Program-made: the position numbers and the translations under genes
The notes under the pieces: model-generated
Told to the model about the DNA's origin: nothing
The model's database searches: none
The model's input: only the letters and a program-made list of their open reading frames with translations
Shown: piece after piece, positions 1 to 48,960 of the stretch
Layout of the letters: the number at the start of each line of letters is the position of its first letter
Position numbering within the stretch: position 1 is the stretch's first letter
NCBI RefSeq assembly: GCF_009730915.1
Contig: NC_052487.1
Location: 1 to 64,000, forward strand
Origin: Dioscorea cayenensis subsp. rotundata
Taxonomy: Eukaryota > Streptophyta > Magnoliopsida > Dioscoreales > Dioscoreaceae
DNA: 64,000 nucleotides
Direction: 5' to 3'

Positions 1-86
1 TCAGTTACGTATTGCTACATACACATGACATAATAATATCTTGAACAGATATCAGAAAAAGGTGGATTTGGTATGAACATGGAAAA

Positions 87-1372
87 ATGGCAGACAAATT
101 TGAGGCAAATTTTTCAAAAAACAAGTTGATACTTCGACATTCATATACCGATGTCACAACCGGAGTGTTGACAATGTCATGGGTACATAATGAAGAATCT
201 TCTCAGAAATATGAAGAAGAAAAACATGAAAATACCAATACCGGCCTAGCACGAGATGCTGATTTTCATGAGGACGAGGTAGAATGCATTGAAAAGGCAT
301 GAAATCATGTCAGAATTGATTCATGAGGAACAGAATCAAGAGGCAACTGGTGAACCAGAAACCCTGAGGTTGAGAAGAGAGCCTGATGAAAGACTGGTCC
401 TGTATCAAACTCTGGAAAATTTGATTGAGGCCAGCGTGCAGAAAGGCGAAACATCGCCTTAAATGTTGAAGAAACTGAAAATGCACATATCATGTCAGAA
501 GAATATCTCGAGAAGCAAGGACCAAAGACCAATGAAACAGAAACTACTGAGGTTTATAAAGAGAGTCTGTGATGAAATATCTGGAATCTCATCGTAAGCT
601 CTGAAAAACTTGACTGTAGACAATATGCAGAAAATGGAGTCCCCCATGTTGATAAAAAAGCACAGACGAACATGATAATGAATCAAGTGAAGCGAATGAC
701 ATCTTGAAAAATAACGTCTGATGATGACAAGACCACTAATGTTTCAATATCAGGGCCAAGCAAGTGAGGAGAAAGTTGTGCAAGTTCAGTTTTTGAGGAA
801 AGAAGGAACTACAAATTAGGTATATGTTTAAATCAGAGTGAAGTAGAAACAGAAACCATAAGTTTGATGATAATAAAGATGAGATCATACCAAAGGATGA
901 AGAAACTTGTATCAAACTTCATTCTAGTACAGAAGCCGAGAACCTTGGCACGCCCATCATCACAGGAGAAACTTGACAATAAATGAGGGAGGAGGTATGA
1001 AGTTGCATATTGTAAATGTTGGAACTAAAGATGGTTGACGAGGGCTGTGAAGACAATGAGGAGAAGAAGTTTGAGGAAGCAGCAACCAAAAGTGATGACA
1101 GAGATCACAGTGAAATCAAATAAATCAACAGTCACGACCAAGGATGCAGATTCACACGAACAGGTTGGTTCAAACTATATCCTTACATAATGCATAAAAG
1201 ATTCCAACATGTTGTCTTCTTTACTTTCGCTGTGTTTCATCAACAGATAAAGATTCCACTTCCCCAAACGATGGATGTGGATGTTGCAAGAAAGCAGACA
1301 CTGAAACTGAAAAAACTGAAGTTCAGCAGAAGCAGAAACTGAACCTGCATTAGAAGAGGTCATTCCAAATTA
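87..1372 (+). pseudogene. Decayed acidic-protein gene remnant
   Basis: The plus strand reads as short Glu/Asp/Lys-rich pieces interrupted by stops and frameshifts. A 71-codon open piece at 87-302 has an acidic second half, followed by further E-rich pieces to about 1170 and again at 1250-1360. Intron-like borders are visible: an AG just before the first acidic piece, a CAG/GTTGGT-like donor near 1163 and a CAACAG acceptor near 1245. The composition resembles the giant acidic gene that converges on it from the right, but I could not align the two module by module. Reading it as a dead, tail-to-tail relative is an inference from composition and position. No function is assigned. Confidence 0.35.
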
Positions 1373-1703
1373 CAAGCAAACATAGTTCAATGTTTTTTCA
1401 AGCAGTACTAAAGCTTCTGTTTATTCATGTATATGCATGGTCAATGTGCCAAGCAAACTCATATATACCATCTCTAATATGAAAGGAGTGTTTCCAATAT
1501 TACTGCTGATTTTGTTGTTTGAATTATCTCCTGCCTTTGCAATTTCTGTATCAATGCACTTACTTGAATTGGCCGGCAGTGGAATCTGTTTAGTTGATCA
1601 GAAAACAATCAATCAAAATGGATGTTTATTTGAGTTTAAGGTAAGGATACATAATTAGGTGGCCTTTAACCATGTAACCATTTTAGAAAGATTTAAAAAC
1701 ATA

Positions 1704-4700
1704 TCAGAGAGAGGGAAAACCAACCATTTGTTCAACTTTGTCATCATATGTTAAGTTTTCAATCTTGCCTCCCAATTCACATGTAATGTCTTGGCTATGG
1801 TTATCATTTATTGATTCTGAGATAATATTATCCTTCTCAGTGTCTGCCTCATCTTTTTTCACTTCAACCAAGTTAATGCCACTTTCTGATTTTTGCTTCT
1901 GCTCATCAGACATTGTCTTCGATACATCTTGCTTCTCATAGATTGCATAATCAGTTTCCTGTTCACCATCATGTGGCTGTCAGGGCCAGAAGAAGAGAAA
2001 CCAAAAGATTAGCTGGGAAATAAAATTGCAAAAAACTTCTGAAGTAGCGCCCTATGGGGAACTAATACTTTGAAGTTTGAAAGCTTTACCTGTAGAACTA
2101 TGGAGGATATTATTTTTGGTTGAATTAGATAATAAAAAATATTTCAATTTACTTACCTGATGTTCAGGAATGCTTTCAGATGTGACATCTTCAATGTTCT
2201 CATTTATTGTTTCCTTATCATGAGAATTTTCTTCTACATTCTTTATGAAGGGTTCATTCCCTGTGCTTTCCATTTCAGTTCTGGTTGCTGCAATCATCTC
2301 AGGTGCTGGATTAAAAAGGTTTTTGCCTTCCTCTGCTACAGCCTCATCTTCCCTGGGGTGAGGATCAGAAGCTTCTTCATTATCTGCTCCCAAAATTTCT
2401 CTCTCTGAGAACTCTTTTGGTAAATCATCAGCACGCTCAATGGCATTGACTTCACTGGGAGTCTCAATACCAGCTTTCACTTCTGCATGCTTAATTTCAG
2501 AAACTTCTCGAGTATTAGTCATCAATACATTTTCTGTTTCACCTATTTGTTGTATTATTTCCTGGTCTGGAGTTGTTTCCTGTGTGATTGTACCGGTGGA
2601 TGTTGCTTGACTGGCCTCATCTTTAGGATTCCACGTGGGGACATTATCTCCCAGATTATCTGTCTCTGATTTATCTCCAGTTGCTGATGTATGACTGTTC
2701 TTTGGAGATGTCGTGTCAGACAACTGCAAATTGTGCAACTCACTAATAGATGTCTGAACTGAGGTGAATCCTTCCTCATTTGCTTTTTCTTGTTCCTTAG
2801 TTGAGCCTTGTGTTTCAGTACCTGTCTCTCCTGGAGCAACATTAGAGGATTCTTGAAGGTTCTCTTGTTCTAGTACAATTTCTTCAATCAGAGCTGGTGC
2901 TAACTCTCTTGTTTCATCTGTTTCAAACCAACCTTCAGTAGTGTGCTTGGGTGATGTTTCAGTTGGCAATTGCACATGGGGTAACTCACTGTTGGACATC
3001 TGAGCTGAGGAATCACCTCCTTCACCTGCCTTTTCTTCTTGTTTTTCCACTGAGGCCTGTGTTTCCGCTACTGGTTGTTTTGATACCACAACAGAGGATT
3101 CCGTAACTATCTCATCTTGAACATCAGTTGTTGTTGTTGTTCTGATGAGTAGTGGAGGATTTTCAGTGGAGTATTGCAAATGAGGTAGATTGCTTGCAGA
3201 GGTTTCGGCTGAGGTGTCTCCTTCTGCTGTTTCTTTATCATGTACTTCAGTTGCATCTTGTATTTCTATTTGCAATGGCAAATGGAGTTCTTCACTAGCA
3301 GATTTCTGAAGGGAGGCATCTCCTTCTTCAATTGCTTTTTCTTGTTCTTCGATTGAGTCCTCTGTTTCAGCTGGTGGTATTTCTGCTGTCACATTAGAGG
3401 TTTCTATAAGCTTCTTGTCCTCTTCCATTCTGTCCTCCGTCAAAGCAGGTGCTAACTCTTTGACATCATCTTCCTGCAATTGAGCTTCAGTTGTTGATGT
3501 ACTGATGCCAGCTGGAGAATTTTCCATTGACAAGTTCTCACAGGTAGACACATGAGCCGATACATCTCGTTCCTCTGTTTCTTCATGTTCTTCAGTTGAG
3601 TCTTGTGTTTGAGCTTCTGGTTCCGCTGATTCTGCATTAGAGTACTCTTCAAGCTTCTCTTCTTCTATCACTTGATCCTGAGTATAGCCAGGTGCTGACT
3701 CCCTTGAACCACCTATGTCAAGCTGATCTTCAGTTTTTGACGGCAATGGAGATTTTTCTGTTTGCAAATAGTGGAGCTCAGTCACAGACAGCTGAACTGA
3801 TGGATCTCCTTTCTTAGTTGTTTCATGTTGTTCTTCAGTTGTACCTTGTGTTTCTAAACTAAGTTCCCCTGATTGTTCATTAGAGGATTTTTTAAGGTTC
3901 TCGTTTTCTTCCACTCCATCAGTAAAAGCAGGTGCCAACTCTTTTGCATCATCTCCCATAACCTCAGCTTCAGTTGTTGATGCACTGATGTGGACTGAAG
4001 GATTTTCAGTTGATGAATGGGATAGTTCACCAGCAGACATGTGAACTGAGGCGTTCCCTTCCTCAGTTTCATTGTTTTGTTCTTCAGTTAACTCTTGTGT
4101 CTCAGTACCTGGCCCCCCTGATACTACATTAGAGGACTCCTTGATCTTCTCATGCTCTGTTACTTCTTGGCTAGGTGCTAACTCCTTCACCTCATCGGTT
4201 GTTGATGGTATTGCTGAATTTTCTATTGGCAATTGCAAATGGAGTTCTTCACTAGGAGACATCTGAGCTGAGGCCTCTTCTTCCTCACTTGCTTTCTCCT
4301 GTTCTTTCACTGAATCCTGTATCTCATTACCTGGTTCTTCTGATGCTGCATTAGAGGATTCTGTTAGCTTCTCGTCGTTGCCCATTCTGTCCTCAGATAA
4401 AGCAGGCACTAACTCTCTTGCATCAACTCCTGTCAACTGAACTTCATTTGCCCATGAACTGTCATGCACTGGAGGGATTTCGTTTGACCATTGCTCACCA
4501 GAAGACATGTGAACTGAGGCCTCACCTTCCTCTGTTTCTTTATCCTGTTCTTCAGTTGAGCATTGTATTTGTGTAGCCGTTTCCCCTGATTCTGCATGAG
4601 AGGATTCTTTAAACTTCTCTTCTTCCCTCACTTGTTCCACATTGATGCCAGGTGCCAACTCTCTTGCATCATCTATCTCGGGTTGATCTTCTGTTTCTAA

Positions 4701-7700
4701 TGGTTCTGGAGAATTTTCTGTTTGCAATTGCAAATGTTGCTCTTCACTCAAAGACATATGAGGTAAGGCATCACCTTCCTCAGCTGCCTTTTCTGGTACT
4801 TCTACTGGGTTTTGTATTTCAGTACCTGGCTCTTCTGATGCTGTATTTGTCCTTTCTTCCATTTGGTCCTCCCTTAAAGCAGGAACTAACTCTTGTGCAT
4901 CATCTCCTGTCAACTGAGCTTCATTACTGACGTCCACTGGAAAGTTTTCAGATGACAATTGCAAATGGGGCAGTTCTCCTGCAGATGTCTGAGCTGAGGC
5001 ATCTTGTATCTCTGTTTCTTTATCTTGTTCTTCAGTTGAGTCTTGTGTTTTAGTGTCTGGCTTTTCAAAGGGTTCTTTAAGATTCTCTTCTCCAACATGT
5101 TCCTTGACATAGACAAGTGCTAACTCCCTTGCGTCTTCTATCTCACTTTGATCTTCAGTTGTTGATGCCACTGGAGATTTCTGAGCTTGTAATTGCAAAT
5201 TGAGTTCTTCATTGGCTGACTTCCGAGCTGAGGCATCTCCTTCTTCGGTTGCCTTTTCTTGTTCTTCCAATGTGCCATGTATTTCAGCTACTTGTTCTTC
5301 TGATGCCGCGCCAGAGGATTCTGTAAGATTCTGATCTTCTTCCATTCTGTTTTCGGCTGAAGCAGGTACTGACTGGTTTACATCATCCTCTGCTGATTGA
5401 GCTTCAGTTGTTGATGTAATGATGCCTACTGGAGGATTTTCAATTGAAAATTGCAAATGGGGTAGCTCATGTGAAGAGGTTTCAACTGAGGCGTCTCCTT
5501 CCTCTGTTTCTTCATATTGTTCTTCAGTTAAGTCTCGTGCGTCAGTACTTGGTTTCCCTGTTTCCGAATCAGAGGATTCTTTAAGGTTCTGTTCTTCTTT
5601 CACATGTTCCTTGACAAAACCAGGTGCTAGCTGCCCTGCATCATCTATCTTGAGTTGATCTTCAGTTGTTGATGGCACCGGAGAAATTTCTTTTCTGGCA
5701 GATTTTTGGAGGGAGGCATCTCCTTCTTCAATTGCTTTTTCTTGTTCTTCAACTGAGTCCTCTGTTTCAGTTGCTGGTATTTCTGGTGCTATACCAGGGG
5801 TTTCTATAAGCTTCTTGTCCTCTTCCATTCTGTCCTCCGTTAAAGCAGGTGCTAACTCTTTCACATCATCTTCTTGCAATTGAGTTTCAATTGTTGATGT
5901 ACTGATGCCTGCTGGAGGATTTCCCATTGACAAGTGCTCACAAGTAGACACATGCGCTGAGACGTCTCCTTCCTCTGTTTTTTCTTGTTCATTAGTTGAG
6001 TCTTGTGTTCGAGTACCTGGTTCCCCTGATTCTGTATTTGAGGATTCTTTAGGCTTCTCTTCTTCTTTCACTTGATCATCAGTACAGTCAGCACCATCTA
6101 TGTGAAGCTGATCATCAGTTTTTGATGGCAATGGAGCTTTTTCTGTTTGCCAATGGTGTACCTCAGTCACAGACAACTGAACCGAGGGATCTCCTTCCTT
6201 GGTTGTTTTATTTTGTTCTTCAGTTGCATCTTGTGTTTCTGTGCCTGGTTCCCCTGTTTCTTCATTGGAGGATTCTTTGAGGGTCTCTTCTTTCACATGT
6301 GCCTTGGCAAAACCAGGTACTTGCTCCCTTGTATCACCCATCTCATGTTGATCTTCCCTTGTTGGTGGCCCTTGAGATTTTTCTATTTGCAATGGCAAAT
6401 GGAGTTCTTCACTAGCAGATTTCTGAAGGGAGGCATCTCCTTCTTCTGTTGCTTTTTCTTGTTCTGCAACTGAGTCGTCTGTTTCAGTTGCTGGTATTTC
6501 TGGTGCTACATTAGAGGTTTCTATAAGCATCTCATCCTCCTCCATTCTTTCCTCCGTTAAAGCAGGTACTAACCCATTCATGTCATCTTTCTGCAATTGG
6601 GCTTCAGTTGTTGATGTACTGATGCCCACTGCAGGGTTTTTCATTGACAAGTGCTCACCAGCAGACATATGAACTGAGACATCTCCTTCATCTGTTTCTT
6701 CTTGTTCTTCAGTTATGTCTTGTGTTTTAGTACCTGGTTCTGCTGATTCTACATTAGGGGAATCTTCAATCTTCTCTTCTCTCATTAGATCCTCAGTATA
6801 GTCAAGTGCTAACTCCCTTGCACCATCAATGTCAAGCTAGTCGGTTTTGATGGCAGTTTTCTGTTGGAAAATAATTGTGGCTTTCACTCGCAGACAGCTG
6901 ACTGGGTGGAAGCATCTCGCTTCCTCAGTTGTTTTATCTTACATTCTTCCGGTTGCATCTTACGCTTTCTGTGCCGCGGTTTCCCCTGTTTCTGAATTAT
7001 TAGATTCTTTGATTCTCTTCTTCTTTCATTTCGCCAATCATGACCAGGTGCTGGCTCCCTTGCATCATCTGTCTTGAGGTTGATCTTCAGTTGTTGATGG
7101 CACTGGAGGTTTATCATTACTGATGATGGTGGAGGTTCTTCAGTAGGAGACTTCTGTGGGAGGTATCTCCTTCTTCAATTGCTTTTCTTGTTTCAACTGG
7201 ATCCTCTGTTTCAGCTGCTGGGTGTTTCAGTGCCCGCATTGAGGGTTTCTATAGGCTTCTCATCATCTCCTATTCCTATCCTCCAATAAAGCGAAATTGC
7301 TAACTTTCTTCCTTCATTTTTCCTGCATTGGTGCTTCAGCTGTTGATGTACTGATTCCTCTGGGTGATTTTTCGATCGACAAGTTCTCACGGTAGACATG
7401 TGACTGGGGCCATCTCCTTCCTCTGTTTCTTGTTCTTCTGGCCAGGTCTCGTGTTTGAGCACACTTAGTTTCAAGTTCTACATTAGAGGATTCTTCAAGC
7501 TTCTCTTCTTCTATCATTTGATCCTCAGAATCGTCAGGTGCTAACTCCCTTGCACCATCAATGTCAAGCTGATCTTCAGTTTTTGATGGCAATGGAGATT
7601 TTTCTGTTGGCAAATGGTGTAGCTCACTCGCAGACAGCTGAATGGAAGCATCTCCTTTCTCAGTTGTTTTATCTTGTTCTTCAGCTGCCTCTTGTGCTTC

Positions 7701-10700
7701 TGTACCTGGTTCCCCTGTTTCTGAATTATTGGATTCTTTAAGATTCTCTTCTTCTTTCACATTTTCCTTAATAAGACCAGGTGCTAGCTCCCTTGCATCA
7801 GATGTCTTGAGTTGATCTTCAGTTGTTGATGGCACTGGAGGTTTATCCATTCGCAATGGCGAATGGACTTCCTCACTAGCAGACTTCTGAAGGGCATCTC
7901 CTTCTTCAATTGCTTTTTCTTGTTCTTCAACTGAGTCCTCTGTTTCGGTTGCTGGTTTTTCTGGTGCTACATTAGAGGTTTCTATAGGCTTCTCATCACC
8001 TCCTATTGTATCCTCCAATAAAGCAGGTGCTAACTCTTTCACTTCATCTTCCTGCAGTGGTGCTTCAGCTGTTGATGTACTGATTCCTGCTGGTTGATTT
8101 TCAATTGACAAGTTCTCACCGGTAGACATGTGACTGGAGACATCTCCTTCCTCTGTTTCTTCTTGTTCTTCTGTTGAGTCTTGTGTTTGAGTACATGGTT
8201 GTGCTGATTCTACATTTGGAGATTCTTCAAGCTTCTCTTCTTCTATCACTTGATCCTGTGTATAGTCAGGTGCTGACTCTCTTGCACCAACTATGTCCTG
8301 ATCTTCAGTTTTTGATGGCAGTGGAGATCTTTCTGGCAAATGGTGCAGTTCACTCATGGGCAACTGAGCTGAAGCATCTCCTTCCTCGGTTGTTTTATTT
8401 TGTTCTTCAGTTACATCTTGTGTTTCTGTACCTGGTTCCCCTGTTTCTTCATTGGTGGATTCTTTGAGGGTCTCTTGTTCTTTCACATGTGCCTTGGCAA
8501 AACCAGGTGCTAGCTCCCTTGCATCACCTGTCTCAAGTTGATCTTCGCTTGTTGATGGCCCTTGAGATTTTTCTATTTGCAATGGCAAATGGATTTCTTC
8601 ACTAGCAGATTTCTGAAAGGAAGCATCTCCTTCTTCTGTTGCTTTTTCTTGTTCTGAAACTGAGTCCTCTGTTTCAGTTGCTGGTATTTCTTGTGATACA
8701 TTAGTGGTTTCTATAAGCGTCTCATCCTCCTCCGTTAAAGCAGGGGCTAACTCTTTCGCTTCATCTTCCTGTGGTGGAGCTTCAGCTGTTGATGTACTGA
8801 TTTCCGCTGGATGATTTTCGATTGACAAGTTCTCATCAGTAGACATGTGAGCCAAGACATCTCCTTCATCTGTTTCTTCTTGTTCTTCTGTTGAGTCTTG
8901 TGTTTTAGCACCTGGTTCTGCTGATTCTACATTAGGAGATTCTTCAAGCTTCTCTTCTCCCATTTGATCCTCAGAATAGTCAGGTGTTAACTCCCTTGCA
9001 CCATCAATGTCAAGCTGATCTTCAGTTTTTGATGGTAATGGAGATTTTTCTGTTGCCAAATGATGTAGCTCACTCGCAGACAGCTGAGTGGAAGCATCTC
9101 CTTTCTCAGTTGTTTTATCTTGTTCTTCAGCTGCATCTTGTGCTTCTGTACCTGGTTCCTCTGTTTCTGAATTATTAGATTCTTTAAGATTCTCTTCTTC
9201 TTTCACATTTTCCTTGATAAAACCAGGTGCTAGCTCCCTTGCATCATCTGTCTTGAGTTGATCTTCAGTTGTTGATGGCACTGGAGGTTTATCTATTTGC
9301 AATGATGAATGGAGTTCTTCAGTAGTAGACTTCTGTTGGGAGGCATCTCCTTCTTCAATTGCTTTTTCTTGTTCTTCAACTGAATCCTCTGTTTCAGCTG
9401 CTGGTATTTCCGGTGCTACATTAGAGGTTTCTATAGGCTTCTCATCATCTCCTATTCTATCCTCCAATAAAGCAGGTGCTAACTCTTTCACTTCATCTTC
9501 CTGCAGTGGTGCTTCAGCTGTTGACGTACTGATTCCTGCTGGTTGATTTTCGATCGACAAGTTCTCATTGGTAGACATGTGACTGGAGACATCTCCTTCC
9601 TCTGTTTCTACTTGTTCTTCTGTTGAGTCTTGTGTTTGAGTACATGGTTGCGCTGATTCTACATTTGGGAATTCTTCAAGCTTCTCTTCAGTATAGTCAG
9701 GTGCTGACGCTCTTGCAGCATCTATGTCAAGCTGATCTTCAGATTTTGATGGCACTTGAGATTTTTCTGGCAAATGGTGTAGTTCACTCATGGGCAACTG
9801 AGCTGAAGCATCTCCTTCCTCAGTTGTTTTATGTTGTTCTTCAGTTGCATCTTGTGTTTCTGCACCTGGTCCCTCTTTTTCTGTATTAGAGGATTCTTTG
9901 AGCTTCTCATCTTCTCCCACTCTTTCCTCAGATATAACCGCTACAGACTTGCTGGTATCACTGTGAGTAACATGTTCAGAGATTGGTGTACTGATGTGCA
10001 CTGGAGATTTTTCTATTGTTGATTGCAACTGGGGCAGCTCACTAGTAGTCCTCTGACCTGAGGCTTCTCCTTCCTCTGTTTCTCGATCTTGTGCTTCAGT
10101 TGAGTCTGGTGTTTCAGTTGTCGATGGCATTGGAGATTCTTCTATTGGCAATTGTATATTCTGTAGTTCAGTAGCAGACCTCTGCACAGAAGTTGTTTCT
10201 TCTTCTTCTTCATTTGCATCTTCTATTTCAACTCCTGGTTCCTTCAACGCTGCATTGAAGGATGCTTTTTGCTCGTCTTCTCCTCCCACTCTTTCTTCTA
10301 TTGAAGCAGGTGTTAACTCATGAGTTTTTGGCTCCTCTTCTGCTGCTGTATTGACATCTTGCTTTAAATTTTGATTTTCTCCCAGAGCTCGTATGTCATT
10401 TTCAGTTGTTTCAGTGTCATCCAAAGAAGTGGCTCTCTGGTTGTCACTGATTATCTCAGTGTTTCGTAGAGTGGTGACAGACTCTTCAATAGGTACAAGA
10501 TCAACATTGTCAATGGTCTCCTCTTCTTTAGTGGGAGGCTCCTCACCAGTATCCTTCATTGTGGCTGTAAAGCCAGGACTTACATCTTCATGTTCTGTTT
10601 GAGAGTCTTCCATGAGCTTCACTTCTATTCCTGAAGTTTGTTTTTCAGAAATTTCTGGTTCGGATGTTTTCTTCTCTATGATTTCTTCTTCATTTTCTTC

Positions 10701-12067
10701 ACCTTCATCTTCTTCTACATCCATGTCTTGTGAAGATTTTGGCGGGACCTCAGACACTGTTCCATGTTCTTTCCCTTTATCAGAAGCTGGTCCATCTTCT
10801 TTGGAATCTTCATCAGAAGCAATGGGATTTATATTTGCACTCTTCGGCATTTCTTTTTCTTCTTTATCGCTGTCTGCTTGAAACCCAGCATCAATATCTT
10901 TGCAGTTGTCATCTAAGGAAATCTGAACTCCTGAGGGCGCTACATTAAAAATTTGACCCCCAGCAGTATCAACTGTTTCAGTTGTAACTTGATGCAAATT
11001 TTCATCTTTGGCTTCGATGATGATGCCATTATCATGTGTGGCTGCAGGTGATGGTTGGTTCTGTCCATCTCTGAGTTTTTCCAAGTTCTGAAGGGAAAGT
11101 GGCTCCGAAACCTCCGTCTTGATCAATGTATCATCACATACTTGTTCTGGTGATCCCTCTGCTTCTTTTATTTTTGGAATATGATCAAATGTTATATTTT
11201 CTATCTCCCCATGTATAATCTGTATGGAAACATCATAATTAGGCAGGTATATGGTACGATACTCTATAACACGGAGCTAGAACTCAATTGTTACTCTATA
11301 TTTGCTTAAGTGCAGTGTGGAAATGTTATAACTTAGCGTCAGGAGAATTTCACTAACTACAATTCTACATCCAAATTTTTAGATGGTATCAGCCTATTTG
11401 ATCCATGATGCAAACTTTACTCCAATTTCCTATTGTAAGATATGTGCCTTCATAACTCTTGTCATTGACCTTCCTCTTGGAGCCTAAAGGACCAAGTTCT
11501 GAATAATTCATTGCTGCATCTAACCAACAACTAGAGATTTACTTTCTAGGATTCTGAGAAAATTCATAATCCTGAGAAATGTTCTTTTTTTTTTTCCTTT
11601 TTGATGAAGAAAAATATGGTTTATTGTTGCAATGAAAACTCTGTTTTGCAGTAAGATCAGCACACGGAAAATTGGAACAAATGTTCTAAAGAAACAAGCA
11701 GGATCTATTAAGATCCCTCTTTCTGCTTTCTTATGCCATGAATCTAATCACAGATATGATCCTTGATGTTCACTACAATCTGAATTGCACAACTTCCTCA
11801 TTTAAGAGAAAATGATACTATTAGTTCAGGAAGAAAATGGCTCTAGACATATATCTTTTTCTCTCTTGGAAATACACATGTTTTGGAAAAACAAAAAACT
11901 TGAAACTGGAAGTGATTCAAACATATTTACATTGTGATGATGTGTTATCCCACAACAACCAGGGAAGTAGTGCCGGCAAACACAAAATACAACAGATGAA
12001 AAACACAGATCACAGGAATTCTCACCTTCTCTGAGATTGGTTCCAGCATTCCACCTTCTGCTGCCAT
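1704..12067 (-). CDS. Giant acidic tandem-repeat protein (three exons, about 3,100 residues)
   Basis: I do not recognise the family. Spliced model: exon 1 at 12026-12067 (starts MAAEGGMLEPISEK, then donor GTGAGA); exon 2 at 2157-11219 (9,063 nt, acceptor ATACAG, donor GTAAGT); exon 3 at 1704-1976 (acceptor CTGACAG, stop TGA). All junctions are phase 0. The protein is dominated by Glu, Ser, Thr, Asp and Gln with very little Cys or Trp, and I see no signal peptide or membrane segment, so it is probably disordered. A unique acidic N-terminus of about 350 residues is followed by about 33 modules of 73-80 residues with the core TEEGDAS..xS..EL..L, then a unique C-terminus of about 230 residues plus exon 3. 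Modules fall into three subtypes that alternate, giving a period near 720 bp. Exon 2 is open from 11219 to 7314 and from 6785 to 2157 in one frame, but broken between. Generic 'titin-like' or 'Glu-rich' labels would be compositional only. The last exon boundary is the least certain part. Confidence 0.75.
2052..6785 (-). CDS. Acidic-repeat gene, intact 3' part of exon 2
   Basis: The open frame holds 18 further modules and a unique acidic C-terminal segment. It lies in the same frame as the 5' part of the exon. The Met at 6785 sits inside a module and is not a believable translation start. The last residues before the stop at 2052 are intronic: the exon should end at 2157, where CAG meets GTAAGT and splices to the exon at 1976. 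Confidence 0.75.
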   Translation of the reverse strand: MREEKIEDSPNVESAEPGTKTQDITEEQEETDEGDVSVHMSAGEHLSMKNPAVGISTSTTEAQLQKDDMNGLVPALTEERMEEDEMLIETSNVAPEIPATETDDSVAEQEKATEEGDASLQKSASEELHLPLQIEKSQGPPTREDQHEMGDTREQVPGFAKAHVKEETLKESSNEETGEPGTETQDATEEQNKTTKEGDPSVQLSVTEVHHWQTEKAPLPSKTDDQLHIDGADCTDDQVKEEEKPKESSNTESGEPGTRTQDSTNEQEKTEEGDVSAHVSTCEHLSMGNPPAGISTSTIETQLQEDDVKELAPALTEDRMEEDKKLIETPGIAPEIPATETEDSVEEQEKAIEEGDASLQKSARKEISPVPSTTEDQLKIDDAGQLAPGFVKEHVKEEQNLKESSDSETGKPSTDARDLTEEQYEETEEGDASVETSSHELPHLQFSIENPPVGIITSTTEAQSAEDDVNQSVPASAENRMEEDQNLTESSGAASEEQVAEIHGTLEEQEKATEEGDASARKSANEELNLQLQAQKSPVASTTEDQSEIEDARELALVYVKEHVGEENLKEPFEKPDTKTQDSTEEQDKETEIQDASAQTSAGELPHLQLSSENFPVDVSNEAQLTGDDAQELVPALREDQMEERTNTASEEPGTEIQNPVEVPEKAAEEGDALPHMSLSEEQHLQLQTENSPEPLETEDQPEIDDARELAPGINVEQVREEEKFKESSHAESGETATQIQCSTEEQDKETEEGEASVHMSSGEQWSNEIPPVHDSSWANEVQLTGVDARELVPALSEDRMGNDEKLTESSNAASEEPGNEIQDSVKEQEKASEEEEASAQMSPSEELHLQLPIENSAIPSTTDEVKELAPSQEVTEHEKIKESSNVVSGGPGTETQELTEEQNNETEEGNASVHMSAGELSHSSTENPSVHISASTTEAEVMGDDAKELAPAFTDGVEENENLKKSSNEQSGELSLETQGTTEEQHETTKKGDPSVQLSVTELHYLQTEKSPLPSKTEDQLDIGGSRESAPGYTQDQVIEEEKLEEYSNAESAEPEAQTQDSTEEHEETEERDVSAHVSTCENLSMENSPAGISTSTTEAQLQEDDVKELAPALTEDRMEEDKKLIETSNVTAEIPPAETEDSIEEQEKAIEEGDASLQKSASEELHLPLQIEIQDATEVHDKETAEGDTSAETSASNLPHLQYSTENPPLLIRTTTTTDVQDEIVTESSVVVSKQPVAETQASVEKQEEKAGEGGDSSAQMSNSELPHVQLPTETSPKHTTEGWFETDETRELAPALIEEIVLEQENLQESSNVAPGETGTETQGSTKEQEKANEEGFTSVQTSISELHNLQLSDTTSPKNSHTSATGDKSETDNLGDNVPTWNPKDEASQATSTGTITQETTPDQEIIQQIGETENVLMTNTREVSEIKHAEVKAGIETPSEVNAIERADDLPKEFSEREILGADNEEASDPHPREDEAVAEEGKNLFNPAPEMIAATRTEMESTGNEPFIKNVEENSHDKETINENIEDVTSESIPEHQVSKLKYFLLSNSTKNNILHSSTGKAFKLQSISSP
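2200..10400 (-). repeat. Higher-order tandem repeat, period about 720 bp
   Basis: A landmark on the plus strand, ATTGACAAGTTCTCA or a close variant, occurs near 7370, 8100, 8820 and 9550, and again near 5926 and 6643, spaced about 717-732 bp. Each period contains three related modules of about 220-240 bp. Further left (2,700-5,500) the module order is less regular and copies are more diverged. Confidence 0.8.
6786..7480 (-). pseudogene. Frame-broken segment of the acidic-repeat exon
   Basis: About three modules can be followed by eye against the clean copies at about 8,960-9,640, but with a small insertion or deletion every few tens of bases and several resulting stops. The clean frame on either side is the same one. 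This is either local decay or, more likely given the abrupt edges, residual read or assembly error in a long repeat. Confidence 0.7.
7314..11219 (-). CDS. Acidic-repeat gene, intact 5' part of exon 2
   Basis: An uninterrupted frame runs from the splice acceptor at 11219. It begins IIHGEIENITFDHIPK and continues directly from exon 1. The first roughly 350 residues are unique and very acidic, including an uninterrupted Glu/Asp run. Twelve repeat modules follow. The last 50 residues before the stop at 7314 show local frame slippage: an Arg/Trp-rich stretch replaces the expected acidic sequence, after which the correct module text returns. The true frame is therefore already disturbed from about 7480 downward. 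Confidence 0.8.
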   Translation of the reverse strand: MIHGEIENITFDHIPKIKEAEGSPEQVCDDTLIKTEVSEPLSLQNLEKLRDGQNQPSPAATHDNGIIIEAKDENLHQVTTETVDTAGGQIFNVAPSGVQISLDDNCKDIDAGFQADSDKEEKEMPKSANINPIASDEDSKEDGPASDKGKEHGTVSEVPPKSSQDMDVEEDEGEENEEEIIEKKTSEPEISEKQTSGIEVKLMEDSQTEHEDVSPGFTATMKDTGEEPPTKEEETIDNVDLVPIEESVTTLRNTEIISDNQRATSLDDTETTENDIRALGENQNLKQDVNTAAEEEPKTHELTPASIEERVGGEDEQKASFNAALKEPGVEIEDANEEEEETTSVQRSATELQNIQLPIEESPMPSTTETPDSTEAQDRETEEGEASGQRTTSELPQLQSTIEKSPVHISTPISEHVTHSDTSKSVAVISEERVGEDEKLKESSNTEKEGPGAETQDATEEQHKTTEEGDASAQLPMSELHHLPEKSQVPSKSEDQLDIDAARASAPDYTEEKLEEFPNVESAQPCTQTQDSTEEQVETEEGDVSSHMSTNENLSIENQPAGISTSTAEAPLQEDEVKELAPALLEDRIGDDEKPIETSNVAPEIPAAETEDSVEEQEKAIEEGDASQQKSTTEELHSSLQIDKPPVPSTTEDQLKTDDARELAPGFIKENVKEEENLKESNNSETEEPGTEAQDAAEEQDKTTEKGDASTQLSASELHHLATEKSPLPSKTEDQLDIDGARELTPDYSEDQMGEEKLEESPNVESAEPGAKTQDSTEEQEETDEGDVLAHMSTDENLSIENHPAEISTSTAEAPPQEDEAKELAPALTEEDETLIETTNVSQEIPATETEDSVSEQEKATEEGDASFQKSASEEIHLPLQIEKSQGPSTSEDQLETGDARELAPGFAKAHVKEQETLKESTNEETGEPGTETQDVTEEQNKTTEEGDASAQLPMSELHHLPERSPLPSKTEDQDIVGARESAPDYTQDQVIEEEKLEESPNVESAQPCTQTQDSTEEQEETEEGDVSSHMSTGENLSIENQPAGISTSTAEAPLQEDEVKELAPALLEDTIGGDEKPIETSNVAPEKPATETEDSVEEQEKAIEEGDALQKSASEEVHSPLRMDKPPVPSTTEDQLKTSDARELAPGLIKENVKEEENLKESNNSETGEPGTEAQEAAEEQDKTTEKGDASIQLSASELHHLPTEKSPLPSKTEDQLDIDGARELAPDDSEDQMIEEEKLEESSNVELETKCAQTRDLARRTRNRGRRWPQSHVYRENLSIEKSPRGISTSTAEAPMQEK

Positions 12068-14900
12068 TGCTGAACAAGATTGCTTCAGTCAGGGTGAATG
12101 AAATGGCTGGAGAAGCTTCTTTTCCAGGAGGGATATAAATGAAATTCCGAAAGTAAGTGTCATCAACACTGACATTTCATTTCCTATTTTTCTTTGAACT
12201 GCCTAAAATGCCATGCTCATGGCAATAGTGACAAAAATAATGCACATATAATTGCAAAGATTTACATAAACGGGACCATTAAGTTAGGTGAAAGTAATTA
12301 TCTTTTGAGCAGTAGATCACAGAATGTGATTGCTTAGCATGAGATGACAAAATGCCACCTGTATTAAATGTTATATTTAGCTTTTGGCCATATGCAAGGA
12401 CCTCTGGTTGGTTAATAGAGTTCCTTTTGGTTGGTTCTGCAGCCTTTTTCTTGTGGAATTACAAGTGAGCCCAATGCCTCCCCCCCTCTCTCTCTCTCTC
12501 TATTATTAATGAACAACAACACCATTTCATTTTGCTTCCACCTTTGTGAGACAATTCTAATTATTCTACTTTTGTCAGAAGGTAGCTTTTCTCCCCCAAA
12601 CAAAAGGCTAGTCATTCTTCTTTCCATTCTATGAATAGTAAGGACCTTTAAATCAAATCTATCATGAAATCCATGGCTTCTGATGAGGCTAACATTGTCT
12701 TTTTGTTCAGGGTCACATTTAACTGAAGATAAAGATCCTTTATTTCCACCAATGACTTTTAAAATTAAGTGGAATTATTTATATATCACTTTGTATTAGT
12801 CCTACAATAATTAAAACTTATTCTGTCATTGTTATCTTGGAAGGCTGCAGCATTTAAAGAAAACCTTACATTACATGATAATGATGATGCCAATGACAAT
12901 TCAAGACTAAATAAAGATAATCAGGGTAGTTATAATTCTTTTTTGAATGCTCGTTGAAAGTGTTGCCCATTATCATATATGGTCACTATGTCAAACGTAT
13001 GCGTAATGAATACTTCCCTGAATCTAGTTTATACAACCACAAATTTCATTTTATTTAACTAATACTTAAATTGCAAATTCTTCAGACAAGTCATTTTTTC
13101 TATGGTTATCCTCCTGCAGAATAATAATTTTTGGCAGAATGCCCCGCCTTACACTGCCAATCAAATCTGACCTGGCTTTCGTCTTTGTTCAGCCATCTAG
13201 GATGAAGACTTCATATTGATATTTTCTTTTTCCAGATGGAAAACCCATCTTCATCCTCATAACAAGGTATGAAACATGCTCTTGAAACATTTAATTCCAA
13301 TATCTTAAACTGTCTTTTCTTTCTGTTAGGAACACATGATGTTACAAATCCTTTGGAACTGTTTATTGTTTGATAGATTTGTTTGGGAAATTATCAAATT
13401 ATGCCAAAAAACAATAGAAAAAGAACCAAATAAAAGGGAATAATAGAACATCAACTAAATTATCTTTATAGTTCAGGAGGCAAAACAAAACAAGGACCAT
13501 CTCAATCTAGCACCGACCATGCTAAAGTTATACTGTCAGCATGTGCCACCCCTGCTTTGTGACTAAACAGTCAGGCCCCAAGAACAAGTGGGCTTTGATT
13601 GACACTTTTGATAAGGAGAGCCATGAATCAATAACTCCATTGAATACCATATATATATATTTTCTCTCTCTCTCAATCATATTATACGAAAAATGATTGT
13701 CATAGTGTTGCAAGTTTCATGGTTCCTTGTATTAATATTAATTGGCCATGAGAAGAGATTGGTGAACATGTGGGGGAGCTTTAGTCTTTGATGCACTTTA
13801 GCTGTAGGAGGCCATGTGGAATAATATTAGTTAGGGTGCATAGTCCAAATGGTTGCCCTGGTGCCATGTCAGTGACACCTATAGAATCCCAAGAGGTGTT
13901 ACTAAATCACTCAATCATATGTTAACTCTTTCCATGCATTTGAAGGGCGTCCACCATGACATCAATTTGAAGTTGTTGGTTCTGACTTGGCTTATAATTA
14001 AAGTGTATGTTTGATAATGATTTGTTTTAATATTATGTTTGGAGGTTGGAGCTTATTAGTTGATTCATTATTTTGGGTAGACAGATTGTCAAATGTCACG
14101 CTTTAACTGTTCTAAAAATGGTCTTATTTTTTGGGTTAGTTCATGATCAAAATGACATGAGTACATTGAACTCTTTGCTAAGTCTTAATACGTAGGTTGA
14201 TGATTTTTGAATCGTATGGGTGCTAGGACTTTCAAGTTAACTGAAAGGGACTGACTGATGCTATTAGTCAATTGAGTGCAGCTTTGAAATTCATCTACAT
14301 TCTAAAAAAGCCGCCCTGTTATATTCCTCTTCATTCTCAACACAGGCTTAATTGCCGATAATTTTCTTTGGTTCATACATGTTGTGATTATGACCTTTCA
14401 TTTTTTTTATCTTGATTCCGTATAGGAATTGAAATCTTCGAGGATCATAGAAAGTATAGAGATATTAATAATTCATACAATCCTAAGTATACAAGCTAAG
14501 TATACATAAATCCAAAAGAATATCCAGCTAATCAAGTTTTGCGAAGAACATAGGTACATATTCTGATGCATGTTGATGCTGGGATGTGTTGAGTAAAGGG
14601 TTTAATTAAATATTCACATTAGTGTTGATGCATTTTAATGTCATGATGTCTCAATGAGAGCTTTGGGCATAGAATGACTCGAGAAAGAGAGGCCATGCCC
14701 AGAATTTAGAGGTGGCCTCAAGAGCAAGACAATAATATCTCATCATTTCAGGCAACTCCCTCATGAGCATGCTAGTGCTATTCATAAACCATAAATATAT
14801 CAAAAATGCAAAGTGACCTACATAAATACCGGATTTGAAATAATTATATATAATCATGTCAACAACTAGTAGAGAAAATCCAAGCCCCGTGATCCTTCAT
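12068..14900. other. Upstream and intergenic DNA, no gene seen
   Basis: This is AT-rich non-coding sequence upstream of the acidic gene. It contains a short CT microsatellite near 12485-12500 and a TA/CT run near 13650-13675. A 69-codon minus-strand frame at 14651-14857 looks more protein-like than the rest but was not recognised. No RNA gene or clear promoter element was found. Confidence 0.5.
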
Positions 14901-14904
14901 TACC

Positions 14905-17900
14905 TTCTATTCATATCATGCTCATAAAATTGCAGACATGCTTCAACAACAGACTTGAGAGAATTATAACCATTATACTTGCTTTTAAGACTGGTTCTCT
15001 CCCTTTTGTGCATCTTGGAGTGCTAATCTCCTCCAAGAAACTTCCAAACATTCATTTTGATTCCATGATTGATCGAGTTGAGAATTTAACAAAGGTCTGG
15101 GATCACAATCACATTTCCTCAGCTGGCAAAACTACTTTGATCAACTCTTCTATCATGTCAATTCCCCTGTACTACCTCTCTGTTTACCCAATTCCTGACT
15201 CTATCTTAGATCGAATTTCCAAAATAGCCAGGCATTTCTTTTGGTCCAAAAGTGGCAATCGAAATGGTATTTGCTCAGTATCTTGGGATGATGTTACACT
15301 CAATAAGACTGAGGGGGGCCTCTCTATCAGAAATCTAAAGTTCTCTAAAATCTCCCTTATGTCCAAGAATGTCTTTAATTATCTTAACTCTACTAATCTC
15401 AATTGGGTGGACATTGTTCGACATCTTCATATCAATGATCATTGGGATTTTGATAAGTTGCATACTATCTTTGGGAATCACTTGAACTCTCTTTTTCTGA
15501 ATGATAGTGCTATAAATGTCCCTAATGTGTGGGTTTGGCTCCCTGATTCAAAAAACTTGACACATTCTGCTTAAGTTTATTCCTATCTGAACCTTGAAGC
15601 CGCAAAAGAGCATTCTTGGGAAGGTTGGACTCATCTTTGGAGGCTAAATGTTGCTCCCCGAGCTAAGCATTTTGTTTGGCTCATGCTCAAGGGCAAAATC
15701 AAGACTCTTGAATACTTATACTCTTTGAACTTAGGTCCCCAAGCTTTATGCCCTATGTGTGGCCTTGACAGGGAAACAATTGAGCATATTTTTAATTTAT
15801 GTCCTAAGGCTCAACTCATCTGGTCCAACATTAGTTCTATCATAAAGAAAAATATTTTCTTCCCGTCAGGCATTTCTTCTGGTTTATGGCTGTTAGCTTG
15901 CTTTGCTAACACCTTAGTTTTTATGAAGTCAATTATTGCTGCAAGTGTATGGTTTATGTGGATAACTCGTTGTAACTTGATCTTTCGAAATGAAGTGCCA
16001 AATTATTCTCTGATTGCTTGCAGAGTTTTCACTCATGTAAAGGAATTTTCCACAGCTAATCTTCCCCAACAAGGTAAGTGCATGATTTTTAATAATTTTT
16101 CATCAACTGATGGCCCTTTCTTATTCCTTGCAGGTATTAGGAGAGACAATTCTACTGATGGAGCAGCTGGCTTCATAATTTCAGACTATAACTCCTCAAT
16201 TTTGATGGCGGGCTTCTGTCCAATTGCTAATTCCTCAAGGATTGGCATTGATGCTAAAGCATTACTTATAGCTCTTCAAATCATTGTCAACAATTACTCA
16301 AGTCTTCAGCACATTTTCATTACCAGTAAAGACCTTCAAGTTGCTTTAAATTCTGAGGATTCAAGTCTTCATTGGCGGGTAGATCCGTGGGTCAAGCATA
16401 TTAAGGATATTCTTCATGACCTTGGAAATCCAGAAATTCATGTTATCCCCCATAATTGGAATGCAGCAACTCATAGACTGGCCATTCATGGTCTCAGTCT
16501 TCATAGTCTCACTTTGTTTTCCAATCCTTTCTGATATTTCCAAAGTTGTTAGGAAATTCTTTTGGAATAGGAATGGAAATGGAAAGGGCATCCATAATGT
16601 GAGTTGGAGTATTTTAACAGAAGGTAAGTCTAAGGGGGGCTTAGGTATTAAGAACCTCAATCTTGCTAAACATTCTCTCATGTCTAAAAACATCTTCAAA
16701 TATTTAAACAAACATGATTGTATTTGGGTCGATATCTTACTGAACAAATATGGGACTATTAATTTTTGTCAAGACTCTGTGCCGGCTAAATGTTCTTGGT
16801 TCTTTAGGGGTCTTTGTAAATCAGCAGTTTTTATTAAATATCATTGCAAAATTAACAAAGTTAACCCTTTGAGAACATCCCTGCTCTGGGATCCCTGGTT
16901 ATATGATATTCCTGTCGCTTTAAAACCCACTTTCCTTAATATGGAAGTTGATTTTGATGCAATTTCTTTCTCTGATATCATTATTAATGAACAATGGTCT
17001 ATTCTGGATATTAATCATATTTTTGGTAACAATGCTGGGCATTTACTGTGTTCTCCTATTGCTATTGATTACAACTCTGAGAATCATTGGACCTGGTTTT
17101 CTGTTGAATCTCACACTAAAATATCTTCTGCTGTTTATCATACTTTGAACAAGCAATCTGTTTGTTCTGATGATTGGGATGGTTGGAACATTGTTTGGCA
17201 TATTCCAGTTGCTCCTAGAATTAAACACTTTATTTGGCTATGCTTGAGAGGTAGGCTTTCTACATCTGCTTTTCTTCACAGCATTCACCTTGGTCCTGAT
17301 AGCTCTTGTGTCTTTTGTGGTTTACAACGTGAGACTACTGATCACCTGTTCTGCCAGTGTGATAGAATCCTAGCAATTTGGGATCAGGTTAATTGTCTGT
17401 TTAATTTATCTATTACATTCATTAATGGTTTTTCCTCAGGCAATTGGGTCACTGATTACAGGCATTCTGCATATACTTTAGCATTAATTGCCGCCTGTGC
17501 TTGGTTCATTTGGTTGTGCCGTTGTGATTACATCTTCAGGGACATTCGTCCCATTTTCCTTAACATTGTTCTCAAGGCTGCTGCTCATGTGGATGAGTTC
17601 TACTGGAGCAATTATGTGCTAATGGGTAGAAAACTATTGCTGTCTAACTTCTCCTCTGCCGATGACAACTTCTTGTTCACTCATGCAACAACAAATCACA
17701 CTCTTAAGGTAAATTCGGTTGGCTTTTTCTTCTCCTCAGCTAACTATAAAATCTCCTTTGCTGGCAGCTCCTCCCGCCAACTCTCGGACATCATCTTCGC
17801 CCTGATCCTTGCCATTGAAGTTGCTCTCCAGATTGCTTTGGATCTTCATATCCCAGTGAAACACATTCTCTTCGACCACGCTGCAGTCATTCATCTTCTC

Positions 17901-18226
17901 CAATGCTTTGATCACGTCTCGTCTTGGAGAATTGAAGCACAAGTAAACAATTTGAAATTCCTTCTTGACGTGCGGGCATCCTCATATTCATATCATCCCC
18001 TCATTTGTCGATTATCCGGCAGCGAATCTAGCTTCGTATGGCATGCTTCATCAACATCTTAATTTGTTTTTGTTTGGCAAAGACCTCCCATTTTGGATTA
18101 TGAAATCGTTTAGAAAGTTTGGTTTTTTCTTTTAACTTGTTTCTATTATTTTCCTCAGTCTGTAGTCTTGTTCTTCTTGATTTAATTTCAATAAATTAGC
18201 TTCTCCTTTTGGAGAGGTTCTTCCAA
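14905..18226 (+). mobile_element. Two fused 5'-truncated LINEs (RNase H lineage)
   Basis: The first copy begins inside the reverse transcriptase and continues through the RT C-terminus (to a stop near 15574), the zf-RVT cysteine region (CPMCGLDRETIEHIF) and an RNase H-like domain to about 16530. There it switches abruptly to a second copy, which restarts at the 'DISKVVRKFFWNRNG' segment. The second copy repeats the same order and ends at 18062. A 3' UTR with TTCAATAAA and a poly(A) run at about 18224-18235 close the pair. Several stops and frame breaks make the first copy non-functional. Confidence 0.85.
16530..18062 (+). pseudogene. LINE ORF2 C-terminal part: RT end, zf-RVT, RNase H-like
   Basis: One long open frame contains the RT C-terminal segment, then zf-RVT with CVFCGLQRETTDHLFCQC (Cys and His of the zinc-binding region), a Trp-rich stretch and an RNase H-like end. 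The catalytic core of the RT is missing because of 5' truncation, so this is transposon debris, not a host gene. The open frame extends upstream to 16416 only by accident, running through the previous LINE's tail. Confidence 0.8.
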
Positions 18227-22917: not shown

Positions 22918-23175
22918 GATTAAGTTCCTGTTTTTTTTTTTTGGTTCTCTGGCAGTTGGACAATATGACAATAGCATATAGCAAAACACATAAAAGATAC
23001 ATCGACCTCACCGGGATATATTAAAGAACTAATAAAAGCATGAGAATCTGTAGGAGGAGAATTTATTCTTTGAAACTCACTCAAGCAAACCGTGCCGTGC
23101 CGCCTCCGGGAGTGAAGGTAAGAACAAGAATACGCACTGATTTCAAAATAATTTTAGGCCAATTTGACTCTTTAG

Positions 23176-38491: not shown

Positions 38492-38650
38492 AGTTTTTGC
38501 GGATCATTTTAAACCGCATTTTGGTTGTAGGCAATCTGTTAGGCTTCGTATTGATCTACAGAAACTATTTGCGCATAAGGGATCGGTGAATCTGGGGGAG
38601 TTGGAAAGGCCTTTCACGTTGGAGGAAATCAAAAGAGCTGTTTTTGACCT

Positions 38651-39772: not shown

Positions 39773-40552
39773 TAGGATTCGTAGGGATTTTTTGTGGATG
39801 GGTCCGGACATTGACCATCCCAAATGCAGATTGGTTGCGTGGAAAATTATTTGTCGCCCTCGCGAGCAAGGGGGATGGGGCATTTTAGACTTACACTGCT
39901 TCAATCAAGCTTTCCTTGGTAAATGGTGGTGGAAATTCATGACGGACTCGTCTTGGGGTGGTGCGAAAGTGATTCAATTCAACTATGGTATGCAATGTTG
40001 GAACATGTATCCTAGGCAGTCGGGTTGAGTGTCTTTCTTTTGGAAATGGGTGATGAGCTGTCTTCCGGCTCTTAGAGGTTGTGTTTTGCATGGAGTTAAT
40101 TCTGGGACGGAGACCCTGTTCTGGAAAGATCGGTGGGTTAATGGCAAGGCACCTATGTACATCTGGCCGGATGAATTCAGTAGGACACGGGCGCCCAATG
40201 GTACTATTAGTAAGCTCTCGAGCTTCTTTGATACTGCCCCCTTATCGGCTGATCTTGATATTCAGGCAATTAGTGCATGTATTAGGGGGTCTGTTGGTCG
40301 GGTGGGGGACAGAAAATGGTGGAGACTCACAGGAAATTGAACATTTACTGTGAAATCCTTTTATTATTTCCTGATTGATGGGGGAGGGTCCGGTGTCCTG
40401 TCACGAGATTCTTCTAGCGTAATCTCTGTCCCAAAAAGATTAATGTCTTCAACTGGCTAGCGTGGAATGATCGAATTCTCACCCTTGAGAATTTAGAAAA
40501 GCATAGATGCAACAAACTCCCTACGGCTACTTGCGTTTTATGTCATGCTGGC

Positions 40553-46260: not shown

Positions 46261-46389
46261 ATTCTAGAGTTTATCCAATGAATCAATTATGCATGGTAGT
46301 TGTCAAAGTTATTACAATGAATGCAATTACATTAGACATATGTATATATATGCATGTATGTATGTATGTATCCCATGTGCCATTCTTTT

Positions 46390-47830
46390 CAGCTACTGAT
46401 TCTCCTGATGCCACGCTAGAGGATTCTGTAAGTTTCTCATCTTTCCCATTCTGTTTCTAGTTGAAGCAGGTACTAACTCTTTTACATCATCTTCTGTCAA
46501 TTGATCTTCAGTTGTTGATGTACTGATGCCTACTCGAGGATTTTTTATTGCTAAATTGCAAATGGGGTAGCTCTAGTGCAGATGTTTCACCGAAGGCATC
46601 TCCTTCCTCTGTTTCTTAATATTGGTTTTCAGTTGAGTCTTGTGCTTCAGTACTTGGTTCCCTGTTTCTGCATTAGAGGATTCTTTTCTCTCACATGCGA
46701 TATAACTCTCACCAGTTGAATATTGTTTTTTAGGACGTGGTTCCGCTGATTCTAGATTAGAGGATTCTTCAAGCCTCTCTTCTTCCATCACTTGATTCTA
46801 AGTATAGTCAGGTGCTTACTCCATTTTACCATCTGTGTCGATCTGATCTTCAGTTTTTAATGGCACTGGAGATTTTTTGTTAGCAAATGGTGTCACTTAT
46901 TCAACGGCAACTGAGCAGAGGCATCACCTACCTCAATTGTTACGTCTTGTTATTTTTCAGTTGCATCTTTTGTTTCTGTACCTGGTTCCCCTGTTTCTGA
47001 ATTAGAAAATTTTTTTAAGCATCTCAGTTCTCATCTTCTCCCACTCTTTCCTCAGATATAACAGCTACAGACATGCCGGAATCATTGTGGATAACCTGTT
47101 CACAGATTGGTGTACTAATTTAAACTGGGGGTTTTTCAATTGATGATTGCAATTTTGTGTAGCGCATTAGCAGGCCTCTGACCTGACCCCTCTCCTTCCT
47201 CTATTTCTTGATCTTGTGCTTCAGTTGAGTCTGGTGTTCCAGTTGTTGATTGCACTGGGGATTTTTCTAATGGCAACTGCAAGTGCTGTAGCTCAGCAGG
47301 AGACCTCTTCGCAGAAATGTCTCCTTCAGTTGTTATTTCTTGTTCTTCATTTGCATCTTCTGTCTCAATTCCTGGTTCTTATAATGTTGTATTGAAATGA
47401 TTCTTTCTGTTTGTCTTCTCCTCCCAGTCTTTCTTCAATTGAAGCAGGTGTTAACTTATGAGTTTTTGAAGTTCTGTTTCCAATGTTTCCTTCTCTGTGA
47501 TTTCTTATTCAGTCATTCCTTCATTGTTTTCATCTTTTACTACATACACATCTTGTGAGGATTTTGCTGAGTACTCATACACTGTTCTATGTTCTTTCCC
47601 TTTATCAGAAGCTGGTCCATCCTCTTTGGAACCTTCATCAGAAGCAATTGGATTTATATTTGCACTCTCAGGCATTTCCTTTTCTTCCTCTTTATTGCTG
47701 TCTGCTTGAAAGTCAGCATCAATATCTTTGCAGTTGTTTTATAAGGAAATCTGAGCTCCTGGTTATCCATCCACTTCTTTTATTTTTGGAATATGATAAA
47801 ATCTTATATTTTCAATCTCCCCATGTATAA
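46390..47830 (-). pseudogene. Pseudogene copy of the acidic-repeat gene (5' half)
   Basis: On the minus strand this matches the acidic gene. 47,500-47,830 corresponds to exon 2 from its splice acceptor through the unique N-terminus (about 10,640-11,219), with a gap of about 200 bp. 46,390-47,490 corresponds to several repeat modules. Stops and frameshifts are frequent throughout. No exon 1 counterpart exists because the block jumps at about 48,250 to the NLR flank. Confidence 0.85.
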
Positions 47831-48960
47831 TCTGTATGGAAACATCATAATTAGGCAGGTATATGGTACGATACTCTACGACACGGAACTAGAACTCAAT
47901 TGCTACTCTATATTTGCTTAAGAGCAGTGTGGAAATGATATAACTTAGCATCAGGAGAATTTCACTAACTACAATTCTACATTCAAATGTTTAGATGGTA
48001 TCAGTCTAATTGATCCATGATGCAAACTTTACTCCAATTTCCTATTATAAGATTAGTGCCTTCATAACTCTCGTCATTGACCTTCCTCTTAGAGCCTAAA
48101 GGGCCAAGCTCTGAATAATTCATTGCTGCATCTAACCAAAAACTAGAGATTTACTTTCTAGGATTCTGTGAAAATTCATAATCCTGAGAAATGCTCTTTT
48201 TTCCCTTTTTGATGAAAAAAAAAATGGCTTATTGCTGCAATGAAAACTCTGTTTGGTTTATTGTTGTTGGATGGGATCTAATCCAACAACTTCAGAGTTT
48301 TCAAAAGGAGGGTAAGTATTGTTGTTGTAGAAGGATGGTTTATTGTTGCCCTAAAGCTCTAACAGTCAACTGTTTCAAATTAAAGAGTAGCTCCATGCAT
48401 GACTTCTGGAGTTCCACAGTCAGCTCGATTCCCACTTCTTGGCCATGGAGTTCTCTGTTTGTCTAGACACCGTCTGTTTAAAACTTGTTTCACACATGGC
48501 TTGCCTGTGCCTAGGAACATGGCAATGCTGACTGCCAGGCCCCTGCTATTTCAAACTCCTGTAATTGGTCTAGGACTCATGCATGCTCACATGCACAATA
48601 TTGAGAGATGCCTCAATCAAATAATTATACCAAATGATTTTCATCTAAGAGCACAGAACGGATTGAAATTTTAAGTGGCTTGGCAAAAGCTCAACTATGT
48701 CTGCCACATCTTAGCTACATACAAATTTTACCATCATGATAAAATTTAGATTACATAATAAGAACAATGCCTAGGAGTTCTTAGAGAAACCAAGGAAAAC
48801 ACATAACATAATGTATGAGTTATTGGAAATAGTGGAGGAATTCTTAAAGCAACTAGGGAAAACACACAAAATAATGTGCATTTGAGTTCTTGCACATGCT
48901 TATTACACACCATAGATCACAAAAATATGAACATAGGAGTAGAAGGTACCCATAGAACTT
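47831..48960. other. Duplicated intergenic DNA with a deletion junction
   Basis: 47,831-48,255 matches intron 1 and adjacent DNA of the acidic gene (11,220-11,650). From about 48,425 the sequence matches the NLR1 3' flank (18,240 onward). The roughly 6.6 kb between these points in the first block, including exon 1 and the fused LINEs, are missing here. Confidence 0.8.

Follow-up and report, generated by a model that had tools for sequence, protein, structure and literature searches.

A gene for a giant acidic repeat protein lies on the minus strand at the start of pseudochromosome C17 of Dioscorea cayenensis subsp. rotundata. By the exon model it consists of 11 exons encoding about 4,855 residues, a length that is approximate because of a noise patch; an alternative with longer exon 9 and exon 3 encodes 4,865 residues. 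The reading frame of its long module array is kept open by selection. The protein ends in a basic tail, shared with a second acidic protein of the yam genome. The window (the whole stretch of 64,000 nucleotides analysed, C17:1-64000) shows only the first two thirds of the gene, which continues at C17:599955-606194, about 600 kb off in the assembly.

Gene structure and the assembly break

Exon borders were set by eye and by codon score, not by a gene predictor. Exon 1 (minus strand, 12026..12067) was recognised by sequence and translation; it carries the start codon, has 14 codons with the letters MAAEGGMLEPISEK (12067-12026) and is followed by the GT donor GTGAGA. Intron 1 (minus strand, 11220..12025) has a GT donor and an AG acceptor. 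Exon 2 (minus strand, 2158..11219, 9 kb) lies between the acceptor CATACAG and the donor GTAAGT and holds an N-terminal cap (10338..11219, 294 codons), a module array (2703..10337) and an acidic linker; it was recognised by open frames, profile hits and stop avoidance. As the first-pass annotation had stated, the frame is open apart from one segment: two open runs, 11276-7317 (1320 codons) and 6836-2055 (1594 codons), flank a single broken stretch. The coordinates drawn there were also essentially right, the reading as a spliced coding gene holds, and the splice signals of exons 1-3 and of the start of exon 4 are usable. Exon 3 (minus strand, 1725..1976, 84 codons) has an AG acceptor and a GTTGGT donor; the coding frame has a codon score of 36.3 (1976-1722), the other two frames -52.3 and -45.5. 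Exon 4 begins in the window (minus strand, 1495..1585) and is whole at C17:599955-600299. The further exons are exon 5 (C17:600448-601566), exon 6 (C17:601655-601765), exon 7 (C17:601906-602106), exon 8 (C17:602176-602262), exon 9 (C17:602616-603251), exon 10 (C17:603392-603865) and exon 11 (C17:603954-606194). Exons 4-11 are in phase 0 with AG/GT borders.

The window occupies the very start of a 22.36-Mb pseudochromosome in a 584-Mb genome, so its left edge is a sequence end. A gap of 1,000 N lies at C17:595305-596304; on the contig behind it (contig B) the match to the giant gene starts 5 bases on, inside the gene. C17:596310-600045 repeats window positions 5265-1495 on the other strand, noisily, with 268 mismatches and 160 gap openings in 3917; the window frame is open there. 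The next 383 bases (C17:600046-600428) are missing at the window junction. C17:600429-601898 (exons 5-6 with introns) matches window positions 30-1494 in plus orientation; these positions are therefore a later part of the giant gene, inverted and noisy, within a plus-strand tail (1..1494) at the end of the assembled sequence. On contig B the 1119 bases of exon 5 are free of stops; the window version has 13-34 stops per frame. A last exon with a stop at window 1-1340 was considered and rejected, because contig B has an open exon with a donor at the same place. The C-terminal cap formerly placed inside the window was not upheld: the gene runs past 1704, and the assembly break cuts the window. 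Read most simply, contig 1-595304 was built into the pseudochromosome in reverse and shares an overlap with contig B within the giant gene.

Two genes would exist if C17:596310-606194 were a real inverted duplicate about 600 kb away and the window gene had a rearranged 3' end of its own. The assembly does place both copies on one pseudochromosome in opposite orientation, and pieces of the giant gene are indeed present at other places in the genome. Such a duplicate is nevertheless unlikely: it would start 5 bases after the 1,000-N gap, inside a gene, its overlap is full of small gaps (the 160 openings) where the window is open, flipping the 595-kb contig would join both gene parts, and the N-terminal cap has two matches in a genome search, namely itself and a decayed copy. 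Very unlikely is an end of the gene at the stop codon 1706-1704 with a poly-A signal near 1630, as drawn earlier; exons 5 and 7 use the same GTTGGT donor that stands behind exon 3, and exons 4-11 follow on C17 in phase 0 with the same acidic composition, although an in-frame TGA follows exon 3 and AATAAA lies at 1630. A shorter isoform ending at 1706-1704 is possible. With the contig read as reversed, the locus illustrates how an assembly can be broken at a chromosome end, and one of its contigs inverted, by a long in-frame repeat gene. Gene length and copy number in annotation made on this assembly are probably wrong, because the gene is split across contigs.

Module array and reading frame

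A profile HMM iterated from one seed module finds 31 modules in exon 2. One of these (7577-7362) already enters noise, and 7361-6837 has room for about two more; the earlier count of about 33 modules therefore holds. Modules are 73-80 residues long, in three subtypes (A, B, C) that return every 720 bp or so. The A-B-C triplets are regular at 9740-5430 and irregular before and after; the three-subtype period first described therefore stands for the first half of the array and becomes looser afterwards. Protein identity at lag 3 averages 0.511, compared with 0.454 ± 0.018 once the module order is permuted (maximum of 1000 permutations 0.518); at lags 6 and 10 it is 0.511 and 0.519, as high as at lag 3. 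Identity to the nearest relative ranges from 43 to 92%, or from 52 to 92% if the diverged first module (10337) is set aside, and the repeat homogenisation suggested at first pass is thus only partial. Since nearest relatives often sit 6, 7 or 10 modules apart (e.g. 9266 and 7820, at 92%), modules have been copied in blocks.

Of the residues encoded by exon 2, 2805 were analysed; they comprise 19.1% E, 7.0% D, 8 Cys and 5 Trp. Net charge is -537, even along the chain, in agreement with the even acidity and near absence of Cys and Trp reported before. This composition suggests that the chain is intrinsically disordered; the earlier proposal of disorder fits as far as composition goes. CK2-type motifs are not enriched (140 against 138.9 ± 8.9 expected), nor are S/T-P motifs (27 against 31.5 ± 4.6). 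Searches of Pfam, NCBIfam and PDB with modules, body and tail gave nothing above cut-offs, and sub-threshold matches vary from member to member; the earlier statement that no known domain is recognised stands for these three databases. The three-module unit of 243 residues gave 60 and 259 pattern matches in viral and prokaryote contigs, with no relative among them. No description of a module array of this kind was found in the titles and abstracts searched, which is not proof of absence.

Module-pair tests covered 27 of the 31 modules; one noisy and three short modules were left out. Null tests used the 10 closest disjoint module pairs (20 modules), each difference being counted once. Pair direction is random in these tests, so observed counts vary slightly between runs (synonymous 82 and 75). 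The ten pairs differ at 270 sites, and no stop is created. Random placement of 270 changes gives 12.1 ± 3.1 stops under a simple null and 7.9 ± 2.4 under a stricter null that keeps the next base; a zero-stop outcome occurred in 0 of 1000 runs under both. In the other two frames, module differences give 10-17 stops, not fewer than chance. Because no stops stand against 7.9-12.1 expected and the other frames are at chance level, the reading frame of the array is under selection to stay open, as the first reading of the sequence had claimed.

Apart from stop avoidance, amino-acid constraint on the modules is near neutral. Replacement changes are near expectation: N/S is 0.93 of the null in one test, and in a second test it comes to about 0.8 of the simple null and 1.0 of the stricter one. 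For 36 close pairs the plain pN/pS falls below this (0.130/0.202), but that ratio takes no account of mutation bias. Slightly more synonymous changes occur than the simple null predicts (82 against 68.2 ± 6.8), but there is no excess over the stricter null (75 against 73.5 ± 6.6). Charge changes are fewer than the simple null predicts (58 against 77.5 ± 6.9) and not depleted when the next base is kept (66 against 70.6 ± 5.8). Selection on charge is not established, because the depletion vanishes under the stricter null. The decayed copy (minus strand, 46371..48254) is a truncated 5' part with a piece of intron 1, the N-terminal cap and some modules. It is 92.6% identical over 500 bases, mostly intron 1, and has stops and frame shifts; this is how sequence of the giant gene looks without selection.

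The broken stretch (minus strand, 7480-6837) spans about two and a half modules, and the reading frame switches within it. Aligned to unit U1 over 683 bases, the unit at 7577-6846 shows only 58 mismatches but 43 gaps, of which 40 break the frame; the control pair U1/U3, 94% alike, has two gaps of a length not divisible by 3. The stretch is most likely uncorrected long-read sequencing error and not biology, because natural decay does not leave so many small gaps per few changes and uncorrected long reads do. Were the break real, this allele would be a pseudogene or would make two proteins, and the ten stops in the array frame of the broken unit would be expected of it. That is highly improbable, given 40-58 frame-breaking gaps in the five comparisons of this unit against 0-16 in ten among the other units, and a frame free of decay on either side.

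C-terminal tail and its relatives

Acidity persists along the 3' part of the protein (17 windows, with -8 to -24 per 100 residues) up to its last 45 residues, which carry a charge of +11. The highest basic-amphipathic score of 4612 windows of 18 residues belongs to GSKVKHSIAKVKKAITGK, in the C-terminal tail. Dehydrins and MARCKS are disordered chains that touch membranes via short basic amphipathic segments; in MARCKS the charge is tuned by phosphorylation. By analogy with these, and by the one amphipathicity score, the basic amphipathic tail (about 40 residues) probably binds membranes. The likeness is one of working only and no homology is claimed; dehydrins and MARCKS are far smaller than the giant, and no match to the dehydrin family was obtained in Pfam scans at E up to 1, so that the protein is not placed among dehydrins.

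The last 84 residues match C12:170239-170454 in a genome search (E 0.0065). The protein encoded there (C12:168739-170478) has a frame open for at least 580 residues over the stretch examined. It is acidic (-93 without the last 60 residues), has one Cys, no Trp and a 20-residue repeat, and ends NNIISKVKQSIVKVKKAIIRKSSSSKAISMENKDEITVK. Tail against tail, the two proteins score 89; 2000 shuffles score 27.7 ± 5.1, with a maximum of 48. In BLASTP the C-terminal 81 residues match with E 9e-9, and nothing beyond them is credibly similar. Like the giant, the C12 protein combines a basic tail with an acidic body poor in Cys and Trp; unlike it, the length is at least 580 residues and the repeat is of 20 residues instead of 73-80. 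Two further tails occur in short frames at C12:195596 (E 0.017) and C20:25678067 (E 0.55), and a short tail match lies at C9:31046252 (E 1.8). No paper text carrying the tail sequence strings was found in a literature search. Tentatively, these proteins may form a family whose one defining mark is a basic, membrane-binding tail, every gene having made a new acidic body through expansion of a repeat of its own. If so, tail, open frame and perhaps charge would be kept by selection, and sequence and length would drift almost freely.

Possible role and comparison with RBB1

The basic tail may dock the protein on a negatively charged membrane, plausibly the tonoplast. The acidic body of about 4,800 residues would then stand off as a charged brush or spacer. 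Its open frame, its length and perhaps its charge would matter more than the exact letters, and copying of module blocks would lengthen or shorten it. Thus built, the protein might work like a vacuole-shaping protein of the RBB1 type. Such a disordered, cytosolic, tail-docked acidic chain is the leading reading, and the case for it is evenly poised. Proteins of the RBB1 type rank with the largest described from plants, and no molecular mechanism is known for them. The layout of tail plus brush raises two simple questions: whether membranes are bound by the tail, and whether the length of the body governs a distance or a crowding effect.

RBB1 (REGULATOR OF BULB BIOGENESIS1, At5g40450, Arabidopsis) has 2,890 residues and no known domain, according to the available part of PMC4411111. 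In the same text, the match of about 40 hits is confined to the 75 C-terminal residues, that of two proteins extends over 40% or more of the length, and putative orthologues are up to 3,715 residues long. RBB1 is present in soluble and membrane fractions, and in rbb1 mutants vacuolar bulbs are more numerous and trans-vacuolar strands scarcer (PMC4411111, available part). Phosphopeptides with S2831 and S2834, within the last 75 residues, decrease under stress or ABA (PMC5386979, as far as available), and RBB1 is one of two proteins common to all four osmotic-stress phosphoproteomes compared in the accessible text of PMC6117580. PMC9440338 and PMC8894768 cite it in their reference lists only. 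As speculation, phosphosites in the last 75 residues would fit a tail charge tuned as in MARCKS.

The giant resembles RBB1 in being a very large plant protein (about 4,855 residues by the exon model against 2,890) with no recognised domain, nothing in Pfam, NCBIfam or PDB exceeding cut-offs, and in bearing a conserved C-terminal segment on a body that, for RBB1, is poorly conserved in the available description. It differs in its regular array of 73-80-residue modules; none is mentioned for RBB1, the word "repeat" occurring 0 times in the available text of PMC4411111. RBB1 is the closest known kind, and by size, acidity and conserved C-terminus as described the giant may be one. Against a role at the tonoplast, the 3xYpet-RBB1 line has a mainly cytosolic signal and no co-localisation with a tonoplast marker (PMC4411111, available part); against a role of charge, the stricter null leaves charge changes at 66 against 70.6 ± 5.8. 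It is possible, if somewhat doubtful, that the giant is a member not of the RBB1 family but of some other acidic family with such a tail, and that its role has nothing to do with the vacuole. At least two different bodies carry the tail in the yam genome. Two published RBB1 peptides, of 8 and 10 residues, were compared with the window and with C17:596305-610000, and no place there shares 6 or more identical residues with either. That absence says little, because both peptides lie outside the conserved 75 residues, and size, acidity and conserved C-terminus fit RBB1 as far as its description is available.

Other features were noted in the window and around the gene and its fragments. Two long NLR-type frames (NB-ARC, Rx N-terminal and LRR in a Pfam scan) lie at 18886-23007 (minus strand) and 42808-45894 (plus strand), the former with a 60-bp tandem repeat of 3.5 copies at 21598-21804. 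Frames at 14873-18059, 25477-28883, 38648-41005, 49094-52276 and 59277-59868 resemble LINE-type reverse transcriptase with RNase H by eye. The downstream neighbour of the gene (C17:608265-609287) has a weak spermine synthase/methyltransferase match, 20.1 of 22.9 bits and below the Pfam cut-off. Fragments of the giant gene occur in pairs of places with flanks about 88-94% identical, as if on larger mobile or duplicated segments: C9:18800001-18819649 with C4:18624862-18644000, C6:17551757-17558484 with C64:67226-74002, and C19:3057027-3062188 with C1288:42733-47997. A decayed piece of exon 11 lies at C2:1526799-1527312 among NLR-like resistance-gene fragments recognised by eye.
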